This document shows positions 10,780 to 23,037 of a stretch of DNA of 64,000 nt, one piece after another. The notes under the pieces were generated by a model. That model saw only the letters and a list, made by a program, of their open reading frames with translations. It was not told where the DNA came from and did no database searches. The position numbers and the translations under genes were made by a program. Position 1 is the stretch's first letter. Each line of letters starts with the position of its first letter. The DNA comes from Nitrospira sp. (GTDB lineage: Bacteria > Nitrospirota > Nitrospiria > Nitrospirales > Nitrospiraceae): assembly GCA_030444405.1 (NCBI GenBank), contig JARFPM010000003.1, positions 1 through 64,000 on the forward strand, given 5' to 3'.

Positions 10780-11679
10780 TCAGCCACGTGGAACCGTGAT
10801 CGTCACCTCATTGCCCCGCTCGTTGTACATCAAGCAGGGGAAGAACGATCGGGCCAAGAAAATTCCACGCCCGTTCGCGTCTTCCGATTCGCAGACCTCT
10901 TGGGATCGCATGAGCAAGCTCCGCCACTTGAAGCCCTTGCCCTCATCGGTGATACGGTACACCAGATTGTTGGCATCCTTGTCGTGAAGCACATGCAAGA
11001 TCACCCGACGATTCCTCAGCCGAGCTTGAGCGAGTCGGTGAGCGAGCAGTTGCTCATAGTGGCCTTCCATCAGGGCCTGTTGTTTCTCCTGGTATTGGAT
11101 CTCGAGATTCCCATGTTCAATGGCGTTAAAGAGCAGCTCTTGCAGGGCTCCGCGAAGGTGCAAACGTCGAACAGGAGACAGGGTCGAGGCCGTCGTCTTG
11201 ATGAGCCAGGAGATCATCCCTGGGATATGGGTCGGGTCGGAATCGACGATCAGTCGATATTCCGATCGGCAGAGTCCCGGAATATCCGCAAGGTCTCCGG
11301 GCAGGAGATTCCGGGCGCGCTGCAATGCATGCGCTAGCTCTTCATCGGTCACGGGCTTGTGCAGATAGTCGGCGGCTCCGATCCGAAGCGCTTGGACGAT
11401 CATCGGTTCGGGCGCATCCTTCGCCATGACGATCACAGGACAGAGTTCATGCCGAGCCTTCAACTCTTTGAGCAAGGTCAGGCCCGTTGCCTCAGGAAGA
11501 AACAAATCGGTGATCACAATGTCCGGTGCCGCCATGTCGATCGTGGTCAAGGCGGTGGTCGGATCGGACGCCGCAACGACCGAAAACCCTCTGCCCTGCA
11601 ACTGTTCGGCAATGCGCGCCTGGGTGTCTGGACAGGGATCGATGACCAGGAGATGATCGGACGTCGTGAGCGTATTCAT
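10780..11679 (-). CDS. Receiver domain fused to RsbW-like anti-sigma kinase
   Basis: The 299-residue protein joins a CheY-like receiver (about 1-120, phosphoacceptor Asp in 'VITDLFLPEATG', Lys in 'DYLHKPV') to an RsbW/SpoIIAB-type ATPase. The N box reads 'ELLFNAIEHGN', with 'DEGKGF' and 'GRGIFLA' following. It probably binds or phosphorylates a STAS protein under control of receiver phosphorylation. ATG 11679 overlaps the Hpt stop as ATGA; a spurious extension to 11835 was dropped. It is last in the partner-switching operon. Its output target is not known from the sequence. Confidence 0.87.
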   Translation of the reverse strand: MNTLTTSDHLLVIDPCPDTQARIAEQLQGRGFSVVAASDPTTALTTIDMAAPDIVITDLFLPEATGLTLLKELKARHELCPVIVMAKDAPEPMIVQALRIGAADYLHKPVTDEELAHALQRARNLLPGDLADIPGLCRSEYRLIVDSDPTHIPGMISWLIKTTASTLSPVRRLHLRGALQELLFNAIEHGNLEIQYQEKQQALMEGHYEQLLAHRLAQARLRNRRVILHVLHDKDANNLVYRITDEGKGFKWRSLLMRSQEVCESEDANGRGIFLARSFFPCLMYNERGNEVTITVPRG

Positions 11680-12035
11680 GCGGCCATCCCTTTGTTGCGC
11701 ACCTGATGGAGTGCGACGAGAAGACGTTGGACTTCCCGATCCAACGCGGCATAGAGCCGCTCCCCATGCGCCAGATCGTCTACTTTCGCCGATTCTTCCA
11801 ATTCTTTGCAGGCTTGAAGGGCGGCCGTGGCACAAAACTGTAATATAGCGCCCTTCAACCGGTGGCTCGATCTCGCCACGCCAGCTGCATTCCCGGCATC
11901 CAAAGCCGCCTGAGCATCCGCCAAGTCCTTCGGACCATGCTCCATAAACAATTCGATCATCATCTGGAACGTCTCTGGGTCATCATCGACACGGGCGAGC
12001 GCCTCATCCAGGCTGAAGATTGCGTCTTGGTCCAT
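11676..12035 (-). CDS. Hpt phosphotransfer protein
   Basis: This stand-alone histidine phosphotransfer domain of about 119 residues has the conserved 'ARSSHRLKGAILQF', with His followed by Lys-Gly. It should pass phosphate between a hybrid kinase and the receiver proteins on either side. The start at 12035 is preceded by TAGGAGTGG; a GTG at 12062 that overlaps the upstream stop is an alternative. It lies between a receiver-PP2C gene and a receiver-HATPase gene, which suggests it serves both. Confidence 0.87.
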   Translation of the reverse strand: MDQDAIFSLDEALARVDDDPETFQMMIELFMEHGPKDLADAQAALDAGNAAGVARSSHRLKGAILQFCATAALQACKELEESAKVDDLAHGERLYAALDREVQRLLVALHQVRNKGMAA

Positions 12036-12058
12036 GGGGTCCACTCCTATCGAAGCGG

Positions 12059-13267
12059 TCACACGGCTATTTCTAGACCCATTACCGCCACATCATCGGG
12101 AAACTGTTCGTGCCCCTGCCATCGAATCGCCTCTGCGACGGTCCCTGCCACCACCTCGGTCAAAGGTCGTTCACCGAACCGGCGAATCGTCTCATCCAAG
12201 CGCGCTTGCCCCCAGAGTTCGCCGGTCGGATCCGGCACCTCGTAGAGACCGTCGCTGAACAGGTACAAACGGTCACCCGGGGTGATAGGAAGCTCTACTG
12301 TGACGTAGGTTGTGAAGCTATCGAATCCAAGCGGTAAATTCGGTTGGGCCATCCAACAGACTGCACCGGATCGGCGGTGAAGCAGCGCTCCGCTGTGCCC
12401 GGCCGTCGCGTAGGACAGGGTATGGCATCGAAGATCAAGACTCGCGAAGACGATCGTGAAGTAATGTCCATTTTCCGTGAGAGGGAATTGCTTATTCGCT
12501 TCCGTCAGGATGGCCCCGGGGTCATTCGAGCCGACATGACGCAGCAAACTGTCTCTGCGAAGAAAGGTGGCAAATGAGGATGATCGCAACGCCGCCGAAA
12601 CACCATGGCCCGAGGCATCCAGCAGATACAGCCCCAAGAAGTCGTCGCTCCACGGAACGATGTTGAAGAGATCGCCGCCCAAGGCGAGTGAAGGCCGATA
12701 GGTGCGAACCATCTGCACACCGGGGACGACCGGCCCCGAGGCCGGGAGCAGCGTTTCGACGTAGCGCGCGGCGGACTGGAGCTCCCGTTCGAGCGCCTCC
12801 TGTTTCTGGCGGATCTCCTCACTGGCATCCTTCAACCTTCTGACCAACGTCGCCGCACGCATCCCGGCCTGCACGCGAGCCGAAATTTCGTACTTGCTGG
12901 CAGCCTTGCTCAGAAAGTCATCGGCGCCGCGGGCCAGGCCTTCGGCGATCTGCTCCGGCTGATCGTGACTCGTCATCATCAAGATCTGACTCGTCTGGAG
13001 TTCAGGATCGTGCCGAACCTGTTCGCAGAAAGACGGCCCGTCCAGTTCCGGCATCATCCAATCCAGGATGGTCAGATTGGGCCGCTCACGCCGAAGCGCC
13101 TCCAGCCCGGCTTTTCCGTCGCCGGCCTGGATCACCCGATAGCCGAGCCGTTTCAGTCGAGCCGCCAAGGCCAGCCGTGCCGTGGGCTCGTCGTCTACGA
13201 CCAGGATGGTAGGCACACCGTCTTCGGCGGCATTGCAGGAGGTTGTCACTGCGGCTGGAGTCGGCAT
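12059..13267 (-). CDS. Receiver-controlled PP2C (RsbU/SpoIIE-like) phosphatase
   Basis: The 402-residue protein has an N-terminal receiver (Asp in 'LTILDWMMPELDG'), a short coiled coil (about 145-175) and a PP2C-type SpoIIE domain. Metal and catalytic motifs are present: 'LGGDLFNI', 'DASGHGVSAAL', 'LYLFSDGLYE' and 'PDDVAVMGL'. It should dephosphorylate a phospho-STAS protein when the receiver is phosphorylated. The two STAS genes immediately upstream are the obvious substrates. The neighbouring Hpt protein could deliver the phosphate. Confidence 0.9.
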   Translation of the reverse strand: MPTPAAVTTSCNAAEDGVPTILVVDDEPTARLALAARLKRLGYRVIQAGDGKAGLEALRRERPNLTILDWMMPELDGPSFCEQVRHDPELQTSQILMMTSHDQPEQIAEGLARGADDFLSKAASKYEISARVQAGMRAATLVRRLKDASEEIRQKQEALERELQSAARYVETLLPASGPVVPGVQMVRTYRPSLALGGDLFNIVPWSDDFLGLYLLDASGHGVSAALRSSSFATFLRRDSLLRHVGSNDPGAILTEANKQFPLTENGHYFTIVFASLDLRCHTLSYATAGHSGALLHRRSGAVCWMAQPNLPLGFDSFTTYVTVELPITPGDRLYLFSDGLYEVPDPTGELWGQARLDETIRRFGERPLTEVVAGTVAEAIRWQGHEQFPDDVAVMGLEIAV

Positions 13268-13344
13268 CGTATGAGACTCGATGAGAGAAACCGTCGGCGT
13301 ATCAATCGGCTAGTGCACGCCCTGTCCGATCGCTCAGCAGCCTG

Positions 13345-13695
13345 CTAGGCAGCACGCTGCTGTTCGGCCAAGGCATCCTGCTCATTGTCATAGACCGGAA
13401 TCAGTTTCTGAATGTTGGCCAGGCTCATGATTTCCCGCACGTAACTTTGGGGCCTTAACATGCTCACTTTTCCTTGGCTCAACTTGAAGTTCTGGGACAC
13501 GAGCGCCAGCATGCCGAGTCCGGAACTGTCCACAAATCGGACGTCGGCCATGTTCAAAATCAGGTGCCGACAGCCCTTTTGGCGAATCGTCTCCACGGCC
13601 GTTTTGAATTGTTCACGATTCGCGTAGGTGAGATCTCCAGTCATCTCAAGAATCACACCATTCGGGACGGGACGTTCTTTCGTATGCATCGGCAT
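13345..13695 (-). CDS. STAS-domain anti-anti-sigma factor-like protein, with DSSGLG
   Basis: This single STAS domain of 116 residues carries 'FVDSSGLGMLALVSQ', matching the phosphorylatable Ser site of SpoIIAA/RsbV. ATG 13695 follows a perfect AAGGAGGT; the in-frame ATG at 13710 lacks one. It is the likely switching substrate of the kinase and phosphatase encoded downstream. The stop codon lies in CTAGCAGGCTG, also seen at the gspK stop. Confidence 0.9.
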   Translation of the reverse strand: MPMHTKERPVPNGVILEMTGDLTYANREQFKTAVETIRQKGCRHLILNMADVRFVDSSGLGMLALVSQNFKLSQGKVSMLRPQSYVREIMSLANIQKLIPVYDNEQDALAEQQRAA

Positions 13696-13740
13696 GAGTA
13701 CCTCCTTCATTCAGACCAGTCGAGATCGGCTTCCCATCAC

Positions 13741-14079
13741 TCACGCGGCCCGACCTTCAGCCGCTGCTTCCTCTGTCGGAAACACTGCGATCATCTTATC
13801 GATATTAGCCATCTCCAAGACCTGCTTCACGGTGCCCTGCGGACCCACAAGGCTGATCCTCCGCTCCTCCACCGAGAGCTGTTGGGACGTCAAGGCCAGG
13901 AGACCCAGTGCGGCGCTGTCCATATACGTCGCCTCGTGCAGATCGACGATGAGATGCCGGCTGCCAGACGCGCGAAACGCCGTGACCGCAGAAGAAAAGT
14001 CTTTGCGGTTGCGATGGGTGAAGACATCGTCGACACGGATCACGGTTGCGTCGCGCCAGGCCCGTTGGGTGATTGGCAT
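13741..14079 (-). CDS. STAS-domain protein with altered phosphosite (DSAALG)
   Basis: This second single STAS domain (112 residues) is related to its neighbour. The motif reads 'YMDSAALGLLALTSQ', so the second Ser of DSSGLG, which is the phosphoacceptor in SpoIIAA, is Ala. It may act as a non-switchable binding partner. ATG 14079 is preceded by GGGAGG; the open frame continuing to 14343 overlaps motB and was not used. It heads the STAS/phosphatase/Hpt operon and has a weak sigma-28-like box upstream. Confidence 0.87.
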   Translation of the reverse strand: MPITQRAWRDATVIRVDDVFTHRNRKDFSSAVTAFRASGSRHLIVDLHEATYMDSAALGLLALTSQQLSVEERRISLVGPQGTVKQVLEMANIDKMIAVFPTEEAAAEGRAA

Positions 14080-14141
14080 AGAGCCTCCCAGATCGAGCAA
14101 AAGGTCAATTGGTGATATTGGTAAGAATTGACTCACTAGTA

Positions 14142-14169
14142 CTGTCGGTTGGTATTCGTCAGGACTTGA
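14142..14169 (-). promoter_or_regulatory. Weak sigma-28-like promoter for the STAS operon
   Basis: On the minus strand TCAAGTCC (14162-14169), 12 bases, then ACCGACAG (14142-14149). The -35 half is identical to that of fliC and the spacing fits the other copies, but the -10 half departs from RCCGATAR at two positions. It lies 63 bases before the STAS start at 14079. It should be regarded as a candidate only. Confidence 0.4.
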
Positions 14170-14203
14170 GGTCTGAATGGTCGGGAAGCAACACGTCCAA
14201 GAC

Positions 14204-15043
14204 CTACGGTGTAGGGACTCGATCGACACCGGACAATTCCGGAACCACCTGCGCGGAGCTCGACGGCAAATCCTCCGTCGGCTGCTGGGTGGGATCCGCG
14301 ACATTTTCTGTCTGGACCATGGGGAAGGATGGAGCATTTTCAAGAATGATGACTTCTACCCGTCGGTTCTTGGCTCTTTGTTCCGGGTCTAGATTGGCCG
14401 TCACAGGCCTGGTATCGGCATGTCCCACTGCCGCCAGATGATCTGCCGGTACCCCGTAGAGCTCCGACAGCACCCGCACAACCATCACCGCCCGAGCAGC
14501 AGATAACTCCCAATTGGAAGGAAATTGCGCGGTTCTAATCGGAACATTATCTGTATGTCCCTCAACCCTGGTATGTCGGTTTAATTCGACAATGGCCGTA
14601 CTAAGACCCTCAAGGAACGTCAGCGCTTCGGGACGCACGGCTGCCTCTCCGCTATTGAACAGCAATTGATCGGGGATGGTGATCACGATATCGCCATTCA
14701 CCTTTTCCGTGACCCGTACCATCGCCAATTGGGGCGCCGCCTTGCTGCCTTTCACCAGATTCCTTAGCTTTCGAACCACGATTTCCTTGCTTCCCAGAGC
14801 ATCTGGTGCCGTCAACGCTGGTTTGCTGGTATTGAGCGTAAAGGCCGAGGGCGAGGATGGCGGACTCACGACAGGATTGAGCGCGGCCTTGATCGATTCG
14901 CTGACGGTTCTGTACTTTCCAGCGTTGACCGAGGAGATCGAATACATCACGACAAAGAACGCAAACAGCAACGTAATAAAGTCGGCGTATGAGACCAGCC
15001 ACCGCTCGTGGTTTTCGTGTTCCTCGTGTTTGTGCTTCGCCAT
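14204..15043 (-). CDS. motB: Flagellar motor stator protein MotB
   Basis: MotB anchors the stator to peptidoglycan and carries the proton-binding Asp. The 279-residue protein has a single membrane helix with Asp at about 21 ('SYADFITLLFAFFVVMYSIS'), a plug/linker region and an OmpA-like domain (about 120-245) with 'VEGHTDNVPI' and 'NRRVEVIIL'. The last 35 residues are Pro/Ser-rich and probably disordered. It follows motA after 90 bases. Confidence 0.96.
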   Translation of the reverse strand: MAKHKHEEHENHERWLVSYADFITLLFAFFVVMYSISSVNAGKYRTVSESIKAALNPVVSPPSSPSAFTLNTSKPALTAPDALGSKEIVVRKLRNLVKGSKAAPQLAMVRVTEKVNGDIVITIPDQLLFNSGEAAVRPEALTFLEGLSTAIVELNRHTRVEGHTDNVPIRTAQFPSNWELSAARAVMVVRVLSELYGVPADHLAAVGHADTRPVTANLDPEQRAKNRRVEVIILENAPSFPMVQTENVADPTQQPTEDLPSSSAQVVPELSGVDRVPTP

Positions 15044-15133: not shown

Positions 15134-15904
15134 CTACTTATTCGTCCCCTTCGTCCGCTCGCTGTGGGGAAGGACGCCCTCCAACTTTTCCTGTAGCAAC
15201 CGTGGATTCTCACCTTGAGCCAGTCCCACAAGCCCCATGATGATAAGATTGCGGAAAGCGGCTTCCTCCTTGACCTTCATTTTGACTTTGTTGGCCAAGG
15301 GTAAGAAGAAAAGGTTGGCTGCCCCAACGCCATAGACCGTGGCGACAAACGCCACTGCAATACCGCTTCCCAGCTTTGAGGGATCAGCCAAATTTTCCAT
15401 CACATGAATCAGCCCGAGCACTGCACCAAGAATACCGACCGTCGGCGCATACCCACCGGCCGCTTCCCAGACCTTGGCCACTATCACTCCTTGCTCTTCA
15501 TGGTGTTCGACTTCGATCTCGAGAATCTCATGCACGGCTCTTGGTTCGGTTCCATCGACAATGAGCTGAATCCCCTTCTTCATGAAGGGATCTCTAATGT
15601 CTTTGAGCTTGCTCTCCAGTGCCAGCAACCCTTGTTTGCGGGAAATATTTGCCAGATCCAATATGAGTTTGATCGTCCCCTTATTGTCGATGTGAGATCC
15701 TGAGATCGCAATGGACAACGCGCCGAACGCCTTGATAACCACGGACAGCGGATTCTGTATACATATGGCGCCGAACGTACCACCCATCACGATGATAAAA
15801 GCCGTCAGCTGGAGGATTGAACCCAGATGCCCGCCTTCGAGCGCTTGACCTCCAGCGATGGAGCCTAATGCGATGACCACTCCGAGAATTGTTGCAATAT
15901 CCAT
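15134..15904 (-). CDS. motA: Flagellar motor stator protein MotA
   Basis: MotA (256 residues) is the four-helix stator subunit. Membrane helices lie at about 2-20, 30-50, 150-170 and 180-200. The cytoplasmic loop has conserved charged residues, and the 'GGYAPTVGILGAVLGLIHVM' segment forms the torque and ion pathway. It is of the PomA/MotA short type. GAGG lies 11 bases before the ATG, just after the stop of the decayed cheZ, so it was probably once coupled to cheZ. Confidence 0.96.
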   Translation of the reverse strand: MDIATILGVVIALGSIAGGQALEGGHLGSILQLTAFIIVMGGTFGAICIQNPLSVVIKAFGALSIAISGSHIDNKGTIKLILDLANISRKQGLLALESKLKDIRDPFMKKGIQLIVDGTEPRAVHEILEIEVEHHEEQGVIVAKVWEAAGGYAPTVGILGAVLGLIHVMENLADPSKLGSGIAVAFVATVYGVGAANLFFLPLANKVKMKVKEEAAFRNLIIMGLVGLAQGENPRLLQEKLEGVLPHSERTKGTNK

Positions 15905-15916
15905 TATGCGAGCGCC

Positions 15917-16240
15917 TCATTTAAACCCAAACTGAGCCAGGATATCGTCGGCGACCTTCTCCTTCATGGCCCTCGTTTTCAATTCCTCGAGCTGTTTCAA
16001 TAGGTGCCCGGCTGTGCCCGCATCACTTGCCGCTTCGCAGCTCTCCTGAAGGCCGAACACCACAACGAGTTCCATCAGCTCTCCTTGCACTTCGTCCAGA
16101 ATGGCGACGAGTTTCTACACCCGCTGAGCCACCAGGTCTTGAAAGGATAGGCGGTCATGATCTCCGTCAGGTGCTTGCCGCCTGCGCCATCATGGCATTC
16201 ATGTTTTCCATTGACGCAACGGATCCGCGTGTCGGTGAGT
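15917..16240 (-). pseudogene. cheZ: Decayed cheZ (CheY-P phosphatase) remnant
   Basis: Reading left from about 16220, the minus strand encodes CheZ-like pieces in different frames: 'MENMNAMMAQAAST', then 'LTEIMTAY', then 'SFQDLVAQRV'. An in-frame TAG follows (16115-16117), then 'KLVAILDEVQGELMELVVVFGLQ'. The end is 'VADDILAQFGFK' with TGA at 15917-15919. FQDL(T)GQR is the conserved CheZ core, and a VDDLLxxLGF-like tail is the CheY-binding helix. At least two frameshifts and one stop argue for a true pseudogene, although assembly error is possible. The right-hand boundary is approximate. Confidence 0.72.
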
Positions 16241-16257
16241 GCTCAGTCCGTTGTCAC

Positions 16258-16285
16258 CTATCGGCATGTTCGCTTGACAACCTGA
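16258..16285 (-). promoter_or_regulatory. Sigma-28-like promoter for the cheZ-remnant/motA/motB operon
   Basis: The minus strand reads TCAGGTTG (16278-16285), 12 bases, GCCGATAG (16258-16265). The -10 differs from GCCGATAA at one position and the -35 matches TCAAGTTC at six of eight. The spacing equals that of the flgM and HD-GYP boxes. It lies just upstream of the cheZ remnant, so motA and motB may still be transcribed from it through the dead gene. Confidence 0.55.
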
Positions 16286-16476: not shown

Positions 16477-16821
16477 TCACGAGGCTTGCCTGGACCGACC
16501 ATGGATCCATTCATGGATATCACGGCGAAGGAACCGCCAGTGCTTTCCAATCTTTGAGGCCGGCAGTTCACCGACTCGGGCGAGCTTATAGACCGTGGAT
16601 TTCGGTACCCGGAGAAACTGAGCCACCTCCATCACGGTTAGAATTTCCCCCTCCCGCACGGTGGCCTCCTCGGCCTGGATCGCCGTTGCTGTAGAGACTT
16701 CATTATTCATAACGACTGAGGTATCGGCGTGGCGGTTCAAAAACTTAAGTACCCGATAGAAGCGGATCTCGGCCTGCGATCTTAGTTTCTTATCCATTCC
16801 ACTCGGATGGATGATCTCCAT
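16477..16821 (-). CDS. Excisionase-family helix-turn-helix protein
   Basis: The 114-residue protein ends in a MerR/excisionase-type HTH_17 domain (about 58-108): 'LTVMEVAQFLRVPKSTVYKLARVGELPASKIGKHWRF' in outline. This is the usual small DNA-binding module of BldC/Xis-like regulators. The N-terminal 55 residues are not recognised. It is transcribed away from a MinD-like ATPase gene with a 68-base shared upstream region. No integrase is nearby, so a regulatory role is more likely than phage excision. Confidence 0.78.
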   Translation of the reverse strand: MEIIHPSGMDKKLRSQAEIRFYRVLKFLNRHADTSVVMNNEVSTATAIQAEEATVREGEILTVMEVAQFLRVPKSTVYKLARVGELPASKIGKHWRFLRRDIHEWIHGRSRQAS

Positions 16822-16889: not shown

Positions 16890-17789
16890 ATGGCACGCGT
16901 AATCACGGTGGCGTCGGGAAAAGGTGGGGTCGGGAAAAGTGTGGTTTCTGCCAACTTGGCTCTCGTCTTGGCCGGGAAAGGGAAGCAGGTAGTGCTCGCA
17001 GACCTCGACGTCGGCGGCGCCGATGCACATGTGCTGGTCGGCCTCCTCAACCCACAGCTCACCCTGACTGACTTCCTTAACCATCGAATCGAGCACCTGG
17101 ATGATCTGGCTCAACGTCTCCCCATTCATCCGAACTTGCGGATTATTCCCGGCACCGGCGACACATTAGCAACGGCCAACATGGCCTATTCACAGAAGAA
17201 GCGCTTGATCAGGAATTTCCAGGATATCCGCGCGGACGTGATCGTCGTCGATATCGGAGCAGGAGCGAGCTATCATACACTCGATTTTTTCCTGATGGCC
17301 GACCACCACGTTGCGGTCGCAACCCCGGACCCGACCTCCGTGCTGGATCTCTACCGGTTCATCAAGTTAGCGGCGATTCGTCGTGTCTTGTCGATGTTTG
17401 TTATGCGGGATGTCATGGCGGAGGGGCTTGCGAATCGGGACTACGGCAGTGTGGAAGAAGTGTTGGACGTCGCAGGCAAGACGGATGAGTCCGGTCGAAC
17501 GATCGCTGAATCCACCCTGCGAGCTTTTCAACCGTCCCTTGTACTCAATCGTGTTTCCGGACGAGCCCGGGTAAACGTGCTTCAGCTCAAAAAGCTGCTC
17601 AAAGAGTATGTCGGCGGTGACTTAACGTTGTTAGGTAAAATTCCCGAAGACCCAGCGATGGAACAAGCGGTGCGCGCGTATGTCCCGGTGGTTCAGCACG
17701 CTCCTTCTTCCCCTGCCGCCGCCGCGCTGGTGAAGACGGGAGAGACGCTGCTACAGCTTCTCACGATCCCTCCTGCCCAAGCGGCCTAG
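16890..17789 (+). CDS. MinD/ParA-family P-loop ATPase
   Basis: The 299-residue protein has a deviant Walker A motif SGKGGVGKS (about 9-17), 'LADLDVGGADAHVL' and a switch region 'VIVVDIGAGASYHTLDF'. It resembles FlhG/MinD but is distinct from the flhG encoded at 60225-61118. An insertion (about 180-215, 'MAEGLANRDYGSVEEVLDVAGK') is not typical of MinD. It lies alone on the plus strand among motility genes, so a role in positioning motility or secretion machinery is plausible but unproven. Confidence 0.82.
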   Translation: MARVITVASGKGGVGKSVVSANLALVLAGKGKQVVLADLDVGGADAHVLVGLLNPQLTLTDFLNHRIEHLDDLAQRLPIHPNLRIIPGTGDTLATANMAYSQKKRLIRNFQDIRADVIVVDIGAGASYHTLDFFLMADHHVAVATPDPTSVLDLYRFIKLAAIRRVLSMFVMRDVMAEGLANRDYGSVEEVLDVAGKTDESGRTIAESTLRAFQPSLVLNRVSGRARVNVLQLKKLLKEYVGGDLTLLGKIPEDPAMEQAVRAYVPVVQHAPSSPAAAALVKTGETLLQLLTIPPAQAA

Positions 17790-20351: not shown

Positions 20352-21752
20352 TTATTGTTGCTTCTGTGTTGATTGAGCCTGGAGAAAACCGCTTTGCCCC
20401 TGGAGCTGTCGCAAGAGTCCATCCAGCGCGGCAAACTGACGCTTCAGACGCTCTTCGTACCGACTGAGGCTGTCTTCTTGCCGAGCGATATCGTCTCCCA
20501 CCCGTGAAATCTCACTCGTCAAACCATTCTTCCGCAGCGTGAGGGGCCCACCAGTCACATCGTTCAACGCGTCGACAGCCGAGACCAAGGACTGAGCAAG
20601 GCCAGTCGTTGCTCCCTGATTGCTGAACAGCGCCTTTACCCCGCTATAGCTGGTGCTCAAGGCAGTGCCCAGCGGCCCATCATCGACCGTGATCGTTCCA
20701 TCCCGTTCAGTCTTGAATCCTATTTGCCCAACATTGGTATAGACCGTACCCCCACCGACCGTCGTGGACAACGCGCTCCGGATACGTGACAACACCGTCT
20801 TGGCCGATGATTCATTGAAGAACACTCCTCCCTGCTTGGTTGTCACGTCATACGTGCTCCGTTCATTAACAAACTTCACCACCTCGTTATACGCCGTCGC
20901 CAGTGCCTTGATATTTGTCTTCACTGCAGCCTGATCCTGAGTCACGCTGACTTGGACGGTTCCTGTTCCTGTAGTCTTCGTCAGCGCAAGCACGACACCC
21001 GGAATCGCATCGGAAACTGTATTAGAACTTCGTTCAATCGTCAGAGGGTTCAACGCTTGATCACCGACCTGGATCTGCGCGTTCTGAGCCGCTGCGAGTG
21101 TATCAACTCCCCCTGTTCCGCTGCCGTTCAAGAGATCCAAATCAGTCCCGTCACTGACGATCGTGACGGCATCGGCACTACCTGTGCTATTTGAGGAGAG
21201 GGCCAAGCGATACGAGGGGGCCACCTCCGTACCCGTATTGATCAACGAAGCGGTGACTCCGGCCCCGAGGTTATTGATCTGATCACGCAAATCGGTCAAC
21301 GTGCCCGTCGACCCAAGGGAGACGGTTTGGTTGGCTCCGGAGCCAACCTTGAACGTGAATGTGGCGGACCCGCCACTGACGATGTCAGCCGTCGCAGAGG
21401 AAACCGCTTTGGCAGACTTGCTGACGATCTGATGAGACTGTGCCAGTTGAACGACTCGGATGCTGTACGTTCCCGGTGTGGCCGAGGATGAGGCTGAGAC
21501 GGAAAACACCGTTGCGTCCGAGACAGAAGCCGTCGTCTTGTCAAACGACGCTGAGAGTCTGAGCGCCTGGGCGGCGCTCTGCAGGGCCGCCACTTTCGTG
21601 CTCAAGGTGGTGAGATCCGTAAACTTGGTGTTGAGTTCGGCCTTCTTCTTGGTCAGTCGATCAACTGGCACATGTGCCACCTTGACCAGTTGATCGACCA
21701 CCTGCCCAAAATCTAGCCCGTTGCCGAGTCCCCCAAAACTTATGGTCGGCAT
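20352..21752 (-). CDS. fliD: Flagellar filament cap protein FliD
   Basis: FliD (466 residues) caps the filament and folds incoming flagellin. The N-terminus 'FGGLGNGLDFGQVVDQLVKV' and C-terminal coiled coil ('DDIARQEDSLSRYEERLKRQFAALDGLL' region) are the conserved interaction ends. The middle contains 'SATPGTYSIRVVQLAQSHQ'. Length and domain order are normal. It lies in a fliC-flaG-fliD-fliS-fliT block with short gaps. Confidence 0.95.
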   Translation of the reverse strand: MPTISFGGLGNGLDFGQVVDQLVKVAHVPVDRLTKKKAELNTKFTDLTTLSTKVAALQSAAQALRLSASFDKTTASVSDATVFSVSASSSATPGTYSIRVVQLAQSHQIVSKSAKAVSSATADIVSGGSATFTFKVGSGANQTVSLGSTGTLTDLRDQINNLGAGVTASLINTGTEVAPSYRLALSSNSTGSADAVTIVSDGTDLDLLNGSGTGGVDTLAAAQNAQIQVGDQALNPLTIERSSNTVSDAIPGVVLALTKTTGTGTVQVSVTQDQAAVKTNIKALATAYNEVVKFVNERSTYDVTTKQGGVFFNESSAKTVLSRIRSALSTTVGGGTVYTNVGQIGFKTERDGTITVDDGPLGTALSTSYSGVKALFSNQGATTGLAQSLVSAVDALNDVTGGPLTLRKNGLTSEISRVGDDIARQEDSLSRYEERLKRQFAALDGLLRQLQGQSGFLQAQSTQKQQ

Positions 21753-21773
21753 GCCACGTCCATGTGTACCAGG

Positions 21774-22133
21774 TTAGACATGTTCCCCGAACAGCAGCCC
21801 CTTCGATCCCAACAGATTCTTGGCGAGGTCAATCACTTCCTGAGGAGGGATCTGTCGAATCACTTCCCCGGAGTCCCCTTTCAGGATCTTCACGATGACC
21901 CGCTTCAAATCTTGGTCCACCTCTATTTGCAAATGTGAATCCGATTGCTGCAACGCTTCCCTTACTTTACCCACGGCTTGCTCAAGCGCTACCCGGTTCG
22001 ACGGCGACGCGACGGTAACGTCGGTGCCACGGGTATGCTCCACCACACGCTCATTCCTCGAATGAGCGTCGGCTTGACTCGTGCGACTGGCAGCGGCCGG
22101 GAGATCCACCTTCGATGTTACATTGGTGATCAT
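21774..22133 (-). CDS. flaG: FlaG family protein
   Basis: This 119-residue protein has the FlaG core in its C-terminal half: 'LQIEVDQDLKRVIVKILKGDSGEVIRQIPPQEVIDLA'. FlaG proteins influence filament length in several bacteria. A GGGGG-type site precedes the ATG. It lies between the fliC hairpin and fliD, the usual place. Confidence 0.92.
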   Translation of the reverse strand: MITNVTSKVDLPAAASRTSQADAHSRNERVVEHTRGTDVTVASPSNRVALEQAVGKVREALQQSDSHLQIEVDQDLKRVIVKILKGDSGEVIRQIPPQEVIDLAKNLLGSKGLLFGEHV

Positions 22134-22163
22134 AACTACCCCCTTTAGTGACTCCGTTCACCA

Positions 22164-22189
22164 GGCCCTCTCCTGTTTAGGAGAGGGCC
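22164..22189 (-). terminator. Strong hairpin directly after fliC
   Basis: GGCCCTCTCCT (22164-22174) and AGGAGAGGGCC (22179-22189) form a perfect 11-bp stem with a 4-base loop, about 20 bases past the fliC stop. There is no U-tract, so it may stabilise fliC mRNA or terminate only partly, allowing read-through into flaG and fliD. Confidence 0.65.
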
Positions 22190-22209
22190 GGTGGACGAAG
22201 TGCCGCCTC

Positions 22210-23037
22210 TTATCCTCGGAGTAAGGCCAACGCTTGTTGCGGCAGAGTATTGGCTTGCGCCAGGGTTGCAATACCTGCCTGCACCAAGATCTGATTCTTC
22301 GTGAATATGGACGTCTCAAGAGCGATGTCCGCGTCGCGGATCCGAGATTCTGCAGCCGTGAGGTTCTCACTCGTGACCTGCAGATTGGCAATGGTTGCCT
22401 CGAACCGGTTCTGAATCGACCCGTATTCGGCTCTGGCACTCGCGACGGCGCTGATCGCATTATCGATATTCGCCAAAGCACTGCTGGCATTCGCGGAGGT
22501 TGAGACGTTCACACTGGCCAGGCCTAACGAAGTCGTGGTGATGTCGTTGAGATTCAGGCTTAGTGTGTTCCCCGTGCCGCTGCGGAACCCGATCGCGATC
22601 GAGAAGCTGATGGACGAACCACTCGTCAGCGCTTGGCCGTTGAATTCGGTGACCTGCGCGATGCGGTCGATTTCTGAACGCAGAGCCACGAACTCCAGAT
22701 CGATGTAGGACCGTTCGGTATTACCCACCGTGCCGCTGGCGGACTGCGAGGACAGCTCTCGAAGACGAGCCAGCAACGACCCGATCGTCGCGGCTGCACC
22801 GTCGGCAATCTGCGTCAAGCTGATGCCGTCCGATGCGTTTCGCGTCGCCTGGTTGATGCTGCGAATCTGCGCCCGCAAGGACTCGGAGAGTCCGAGACCG
22901 GCAGCATCATCCGCCGCACGCGTCACCCGAAGACCGGATGACAGCCGTTCAACCGATCGATTCAGGTTCAGGGTATTGACCGAGAGGTTGCGCTGAGCCG
23001 CGATGGATGCAGGATTGTTGTTAACAATAAGAGCCAT
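22210..23037 (-). CDS. fliC: Flagellin
   Basis: The filament subunit has 275 residues. It contains the conserved N-terminal D0/D1 ('IVNNNPASIAAQRNLSVN', 'RLSSGLRVTRAADDAAGL') and C-terminal D1/D0 ('NQILVQAGIATLAQANTLPQQALALL'). There is almost no variable central domain, only a Ser/Thr-rich stretch (about 140-190) that could carry O-glycans. It is the only flagellin in the window. Its own sigma-28 promoter lies about 100 bases upstream, and the leader has CsrA-like sites. A strong AAGGAGG precedes the ATG. Confidence 0.97.
   Translation of the reverse strand: MALIVNNNPASIAAQRNLSVNTLNLNRSVERLSSGLRVTRAADDAAGLGLSESLRAQIRSINQATRNASDGISLTQIADGAAATIGSLLARLRELSSQSASGTVGNTERSYIDLEFVALRSEIDRIAQVTEFNGQALTSGSSISFSIAIGFRSGTGNTLSLNLNDITTTSLGLASVNVSTSANASSALANIDNAISAVASARAEYGSIQNRFEATIANLQVTSENLTAAESRIRDADIALETSIFTKNQILVQAGIATLAQANTLPQQALALLRG

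Follow-up and report, generated by a model that had tools for sequence, protein, structure and literature searches.

Positions 15917-16190 on the minus strand of the window (the whole 64,000-nucleotide stretch of Nitrospira sp. DNA analysed here) are confirmed, by their sequence, as a cheZ pseudogene and not a working gene. Very probably, this fragment is the decaying end of cheZ in a flagellated Nitrospira lineage that has lost its flagellar chemotaxis pathway completely, step by step. The kinase, the adaptor, the receptors, CheY, and CheZ appear to have been lost, and an apparently complete flagellum was kept. Features of the locus are listed in Table 1.

Table 1. Features of the cheZ-motAB locus, with positions counted from the first letter of the window.
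Feature	Position	Strand	Remark
STAS - STAS - REC/SpoIIE phosphatase - Hpt - REC/HATPase module, retained	10780..14079	-	follows cheB in chemotaxis-positive relatives
motB-STAS junction	14080..14203	-	in relatives, site of about 13 kb that includes cheA, cheW, MCP, cheR, cheD, cheB
motB, intact	14204..15043	-
motA, intact	15134..15904	-	dN/dS 0.03-0.06 versus relatives
cheZ pseudogene, C-terminal half	15917..16190	-	frameshifts near 16178 and near 16150; in-frame TAG 16117-16115
Deletion junction	16191..16258	-	about 0.77 kb of the relatives' sequence gone: whole cheY and first ~100 cheZ codons
FliA(sigma28)-like promoter, TCAGGT...GCCGATA	16285..16259	-	kept upstream of cheY in relatives
HTH_17 (excisionase-like) gene	16477..16821	-	precedes cheY in relatives
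MinD/ParA-like ATPase	16890..17789	+	conserved divergent neighbour

When the window was searched by tblastn with an intact Nitrospira CheZ, residues 115-191 of the query matched positions 16150-15920 with 79% identity over 77 residues (E 1.9e-33), and the in-frame TAG falls within this stretch. The CheZ hallmarks noticed by the sequence-only reading are therefore backed by an alignment of 77 codons, well beyond what short motifs or chance would give. A second short match at 16176-16138 lies in a different frame, which places a frameshift near 16150, and alignment to relatives reveals the other; both the frameshifts and the stop suspected earlier are thus present. At the DNA level, the relic is 82-87% identical to the closest intact cheZ orthologues over about 270 bases, and it occupies the position beside motA that intact cheZ has in relatives. 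It is orthologous to the C-terminal half of CheZ (PF04344, the CheY~P phosphatase), with the SFQDLVAQ motif and the ADDILAQFGFK tail; unlike a functional CheZ, it has no start, its N-terminal half is deleted, and two frameshifts and a stop interrupt what remains. Since the first ~100 codons are gone, the relic is unable to encode CheZ. No full-length CheZ ORF spanning both halves of the profile was found in the genome, only residues 115-191 with their stop. The relic ends as a coupled gene would, its stop codon (15919-15917) lying 12 bases ahead of the motA ATG. The earlier reading had extended the decaying gene to 16240; its part up to 16190 is cheZ, but homology begins at about that point and 16191-16240 is therefore flank and deletion junction. 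The dN/dS of the cheZ tail is about 0.10, as in intact genes, which points either to recent decay at this locus or to a new cheYZ copy brought in by recombination.

In relatives, the gene order is ParA / HTH gene - cheY - cheZ - motA - motB, with cheY and cheZ intact. The promoter, between which and motA the sequence-only reading had placed the decayed gene, is conserved at eleven related loci (L104, L105, L108, L112, L114, L119, L122, L128, L134, L147, and L157); in the window it survives upstream of the cheZ relic and motAB. Its spacing to cheZ is about 845 bases in relatives versus about 72 here, and therefore about 0.77 kb was lost, a larger event than the lesions within cheZ. The motA gene evolves under purifying selection. 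A second sigma28-like element (TTAAGT...GCCGATA) is found at 16748-16722, at the start of the HTH gene, and this gene therefore probably starts with an ATG at about 16710 instead of at 16821. The genes of flagellin, FliD, and MotB (20352-23037; 14204-15043) are much closer to those of Bin45, a relative discussed below, than to those of G007, G038, and G012; for the ParA and PilZ genes, by contrast, G007 is the closer. These split affinities indicate a mosaic locus, suggesting recombination.

The second difference from the Nitrospira flagellar chemotaxis locus (cheY-cheZ-motA-motB ... cheA-cheW-MCP-cheR-cheD-cheB) lies downstream of motB. In the relative G038, motB is followed by about 13 kb of chemotaxis genes, namely a response regulator, CheA, CheW, MCP, CheR, CheD, and CheB (the last three named from sequence motifs and position), and then by the STAS-STAS-SpoIIE phosphatase module, whereas in the window motB is followed by the STAS module directly. 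Thus ParA, the HTH gene, motA, motB, and the STAS-SpoIIE module are shared neighbours, but the window lacks cheY, half of cheZ, and everything from cheA to cheB. The gap at this locus lies inside one contig, and relocation of the block to another contig was ruled out by searches for CheW and MCP. The genome is a 99.6% complete MAG in 170 contigs, in which a missing gene could fall in a gap; within it no second cheZ or other CheZ family match, no CheC/FliY (PF04509), no CheX (PF13690), and no orthologous CheY (best response regulator 34%) were found. CheW domains are confined to one cluster on contig C58, which holds a CheA-REC hybrid with three Hpt domains, three CheW, two response regulators, and the sole MCP of the genome; there is no second CheA/CheW set and no MCP elsewhere. 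Neither at the locus nor on the examined parts of contigs C90 and C58 were cheR, cheB, or cheD found. The CheA-REC hybrid cluster also occurs in three Nitrospira genomes that lack FliM (G002, G021, and G036), and it is therefore probably not a flagellar system. In another genome, G019, the MCP of this cluster has an in-frame TAA inside the matched stretch (C12:207244-207783).

The flagellar genes are whole: FlgE/F/G/H/I/K/L, FlhA/B/F, FliA/D/G/I/M/R, flagellin, MotA, and MotB. Together they cover the stator, the switch (FliM and FliG), export, rod, hook, rings, filament, cap, and FliA, and on this gene content the flagellum is apparently complete. The CheY-binding peptide of FliM, KILSQDEIDALL, is retained. 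The genome therefore combines intact flagellar and stator genes with the absence, in a 99.6% complete MAG, of any flagellar CheA, CheW, MCP, CheY, and CheZ.

Among 60 genomes of the genus, this one included, CheZ is present in 49. The remaining genomes have no FliM, apart from the present genome, Bin45 (G013), and G055, all three of which also lack flagellar CheA/CheW; cheZ is never lost alone in this sample. In relatives with the pathway, genes for a flagellar CheA of about 720-760 aa and for CheW lie downstream of motB. Two genomes, Bin45 (locus L157) and Bin59 (G083, locus L103), resemble the present one in that motAB is present, flagellar CheA and CheW are absent, and the motB-STAS junction is similar. 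The junction of the present genome matches that of Bin45 better than shuffled sequences do (z 9.5 overall), with z values of 4.6 (against Bin45) and 3.2 for the STAS-side half. This likeness favours one ancestral deletion of the block, passed on by descent or by recombination. The lesions in cheZ, in contrast, differ among all three genomes and therefore arose separately: in Bin45 unrelated sequence interrupts the link between cheZ and motA, and in Bin59 cheZ is reduced to its last ~25 codons. Both Bin59 (L103:9287-9664) and Bin45 (L157:6678-7052) have an intact cheY with dN/dS of about 0.03-0.065, and both lack flagellar CheA and CheZ. The three genomes do not group in a tree of parA, motA, and motB and group only in part in a tree of the hybrid cluster; since the two trees conflict, pieces of the locus may have been moved by recombination, which leaves the order of the losses uncertain.

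Further losses are seen in other members of the genus. In Nitrospira RBC048 and RBC_NOB1 (L150 and L152; Nitrospira defluvii-like), cheY, cheZ, and the block were lost independently; the former has an apparent cheB tail ahead of STAS, and in the latter the HTH gene lies directly against motA and no trace of cheYZ can be seen. G055 was considered as a third flagellum without steering and rejected, because the region examined (C2:450000-489999; L098-L099) lacks motA, motB, fliC, fliD, and cheYZ, whereas the genome retains several MCPs, CheR, CheD, and CheB as well as a complete FliM, a different kind of decay. Its CheW and CheA domains occur solely in the hybrid cluster, leaving orphan receptors without a kinase.

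The reading of the fragment as a remnant of a dismantled pathway has to be weighed against four others. An intact cheYZ hidden by a sequencing error, a collapse, or mis-assembly is very unlikely, even though the MAG is in 170 contigs and the exact deletion is known from a single genome: the deletion, two frameshifts, and a stop all indicate a dead gene, the partners CheA, CheW, MCP, and CheY are missing genome-wide, and in two further MAGs the block is likewise missing and cheZ is broken. The sequence-only reading had raised altered chemotactic adaptation or else another phosphatase (CheC/CheX/FliY). Loss of CheZ alone, with replacement by another CheY~P phosphatase, accords with general expectation and with the kept FliM peptide; with neither such a phosphatase nor an orthologous CheY or flagellar CheA in the genome, it is extremely improbable. 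Rather, cheZ appears to be decaying because the pathway is gone, and since no CheY~P pathway remains, there is no adaptation left to alter.

Continued switching of the motor, with cheYZ redundant and a response regulator from either the CheA-REC hybrid cluster or the STAS/SpoIIE module beside motB in control, is also unlikely, though less so. The FliM CheY-binding motif is intact both here and in Bin45, and the retention of cheY at low dN/dS in Bin45 and Bin59 despite the absence of flagellar CheA points the same way; the presence of the hybrid cluster in genomes without FliM argues that it probably serves something else, and conservation of FliM may reflect just a recent loss. We likewise doubt that the peptide was kept after loss of CheA because a non-chemotaxis signalling module took over flagellar control. 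Finally, the frame stays open past the TAG, its last 52 codons have an ATG preceded by AAGGAG (a possible ribosome-binding site), and it stops close ahead of motA, so that this end might persist as a small protein or serve motA as a translated leader. CheY, its partner, has been lost, however, and in Bin45 and Bin59 the corresponding end is cut off from motA or is down to its last codons, all of which makes such a role most improbable.

For the dismantled pathway, a history can be proposed from what is observed, namely the lesions, the absent genes, the integrity of the flagellar genes, and the similar junction in Bin45 and Bin59. The block of cheA, cheW, MCP, cheR, cheD, and cheB between motB and the STAS module may have been lost initially. 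Without CheA, no CheY~P would be formed and CheZ would be left without a substrate; cheZ would thus be free to decay, and may have been broken separately in each lineage. In the present genome, one further deletion would then have removed cheY together with half of cheZ, so that the sigma28-like promoter came to drive motAB. The simplest order, therefore, would be kinase block, then cheZ, then cheY. The flagellum would be expected to turn in its default direction, giving unbiased swimming instead of altered adaptation.

It appears that the dismantling of a chemotaxis pathway has been caught part-way in a globally important nitrifier, with the kinase block missing in three genomes and cheY lost in one and kept in two. 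For annotators, chemotaxis should not be assumed from the presence of a flagellum in a Nitrospira genome, and genomes of this kind may represent natural strains for asking what an unsteered flagellum is for. No report of the loss of steering alone in Nitrospira was found in the literature searched. Brucella is described (PMC12213604) as a flagellate that has flagellar genes and lacks chemotaxis genes, and this combination is shared with the present genome; Brucella, however, is an intracellular pathogen, whereas this is an environmental nitrifier in which the relics can still be seen and FliM has an intact CheY-binding site. Within the genus, flagellar loss has been reported, and Nitrospira japonica NJ1 is without flagella (PMC5767232). 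The loss of motility functions is common to both cases, but N. japonica NJ1 lost the flagellum itself, whereas here just the steering is gone.
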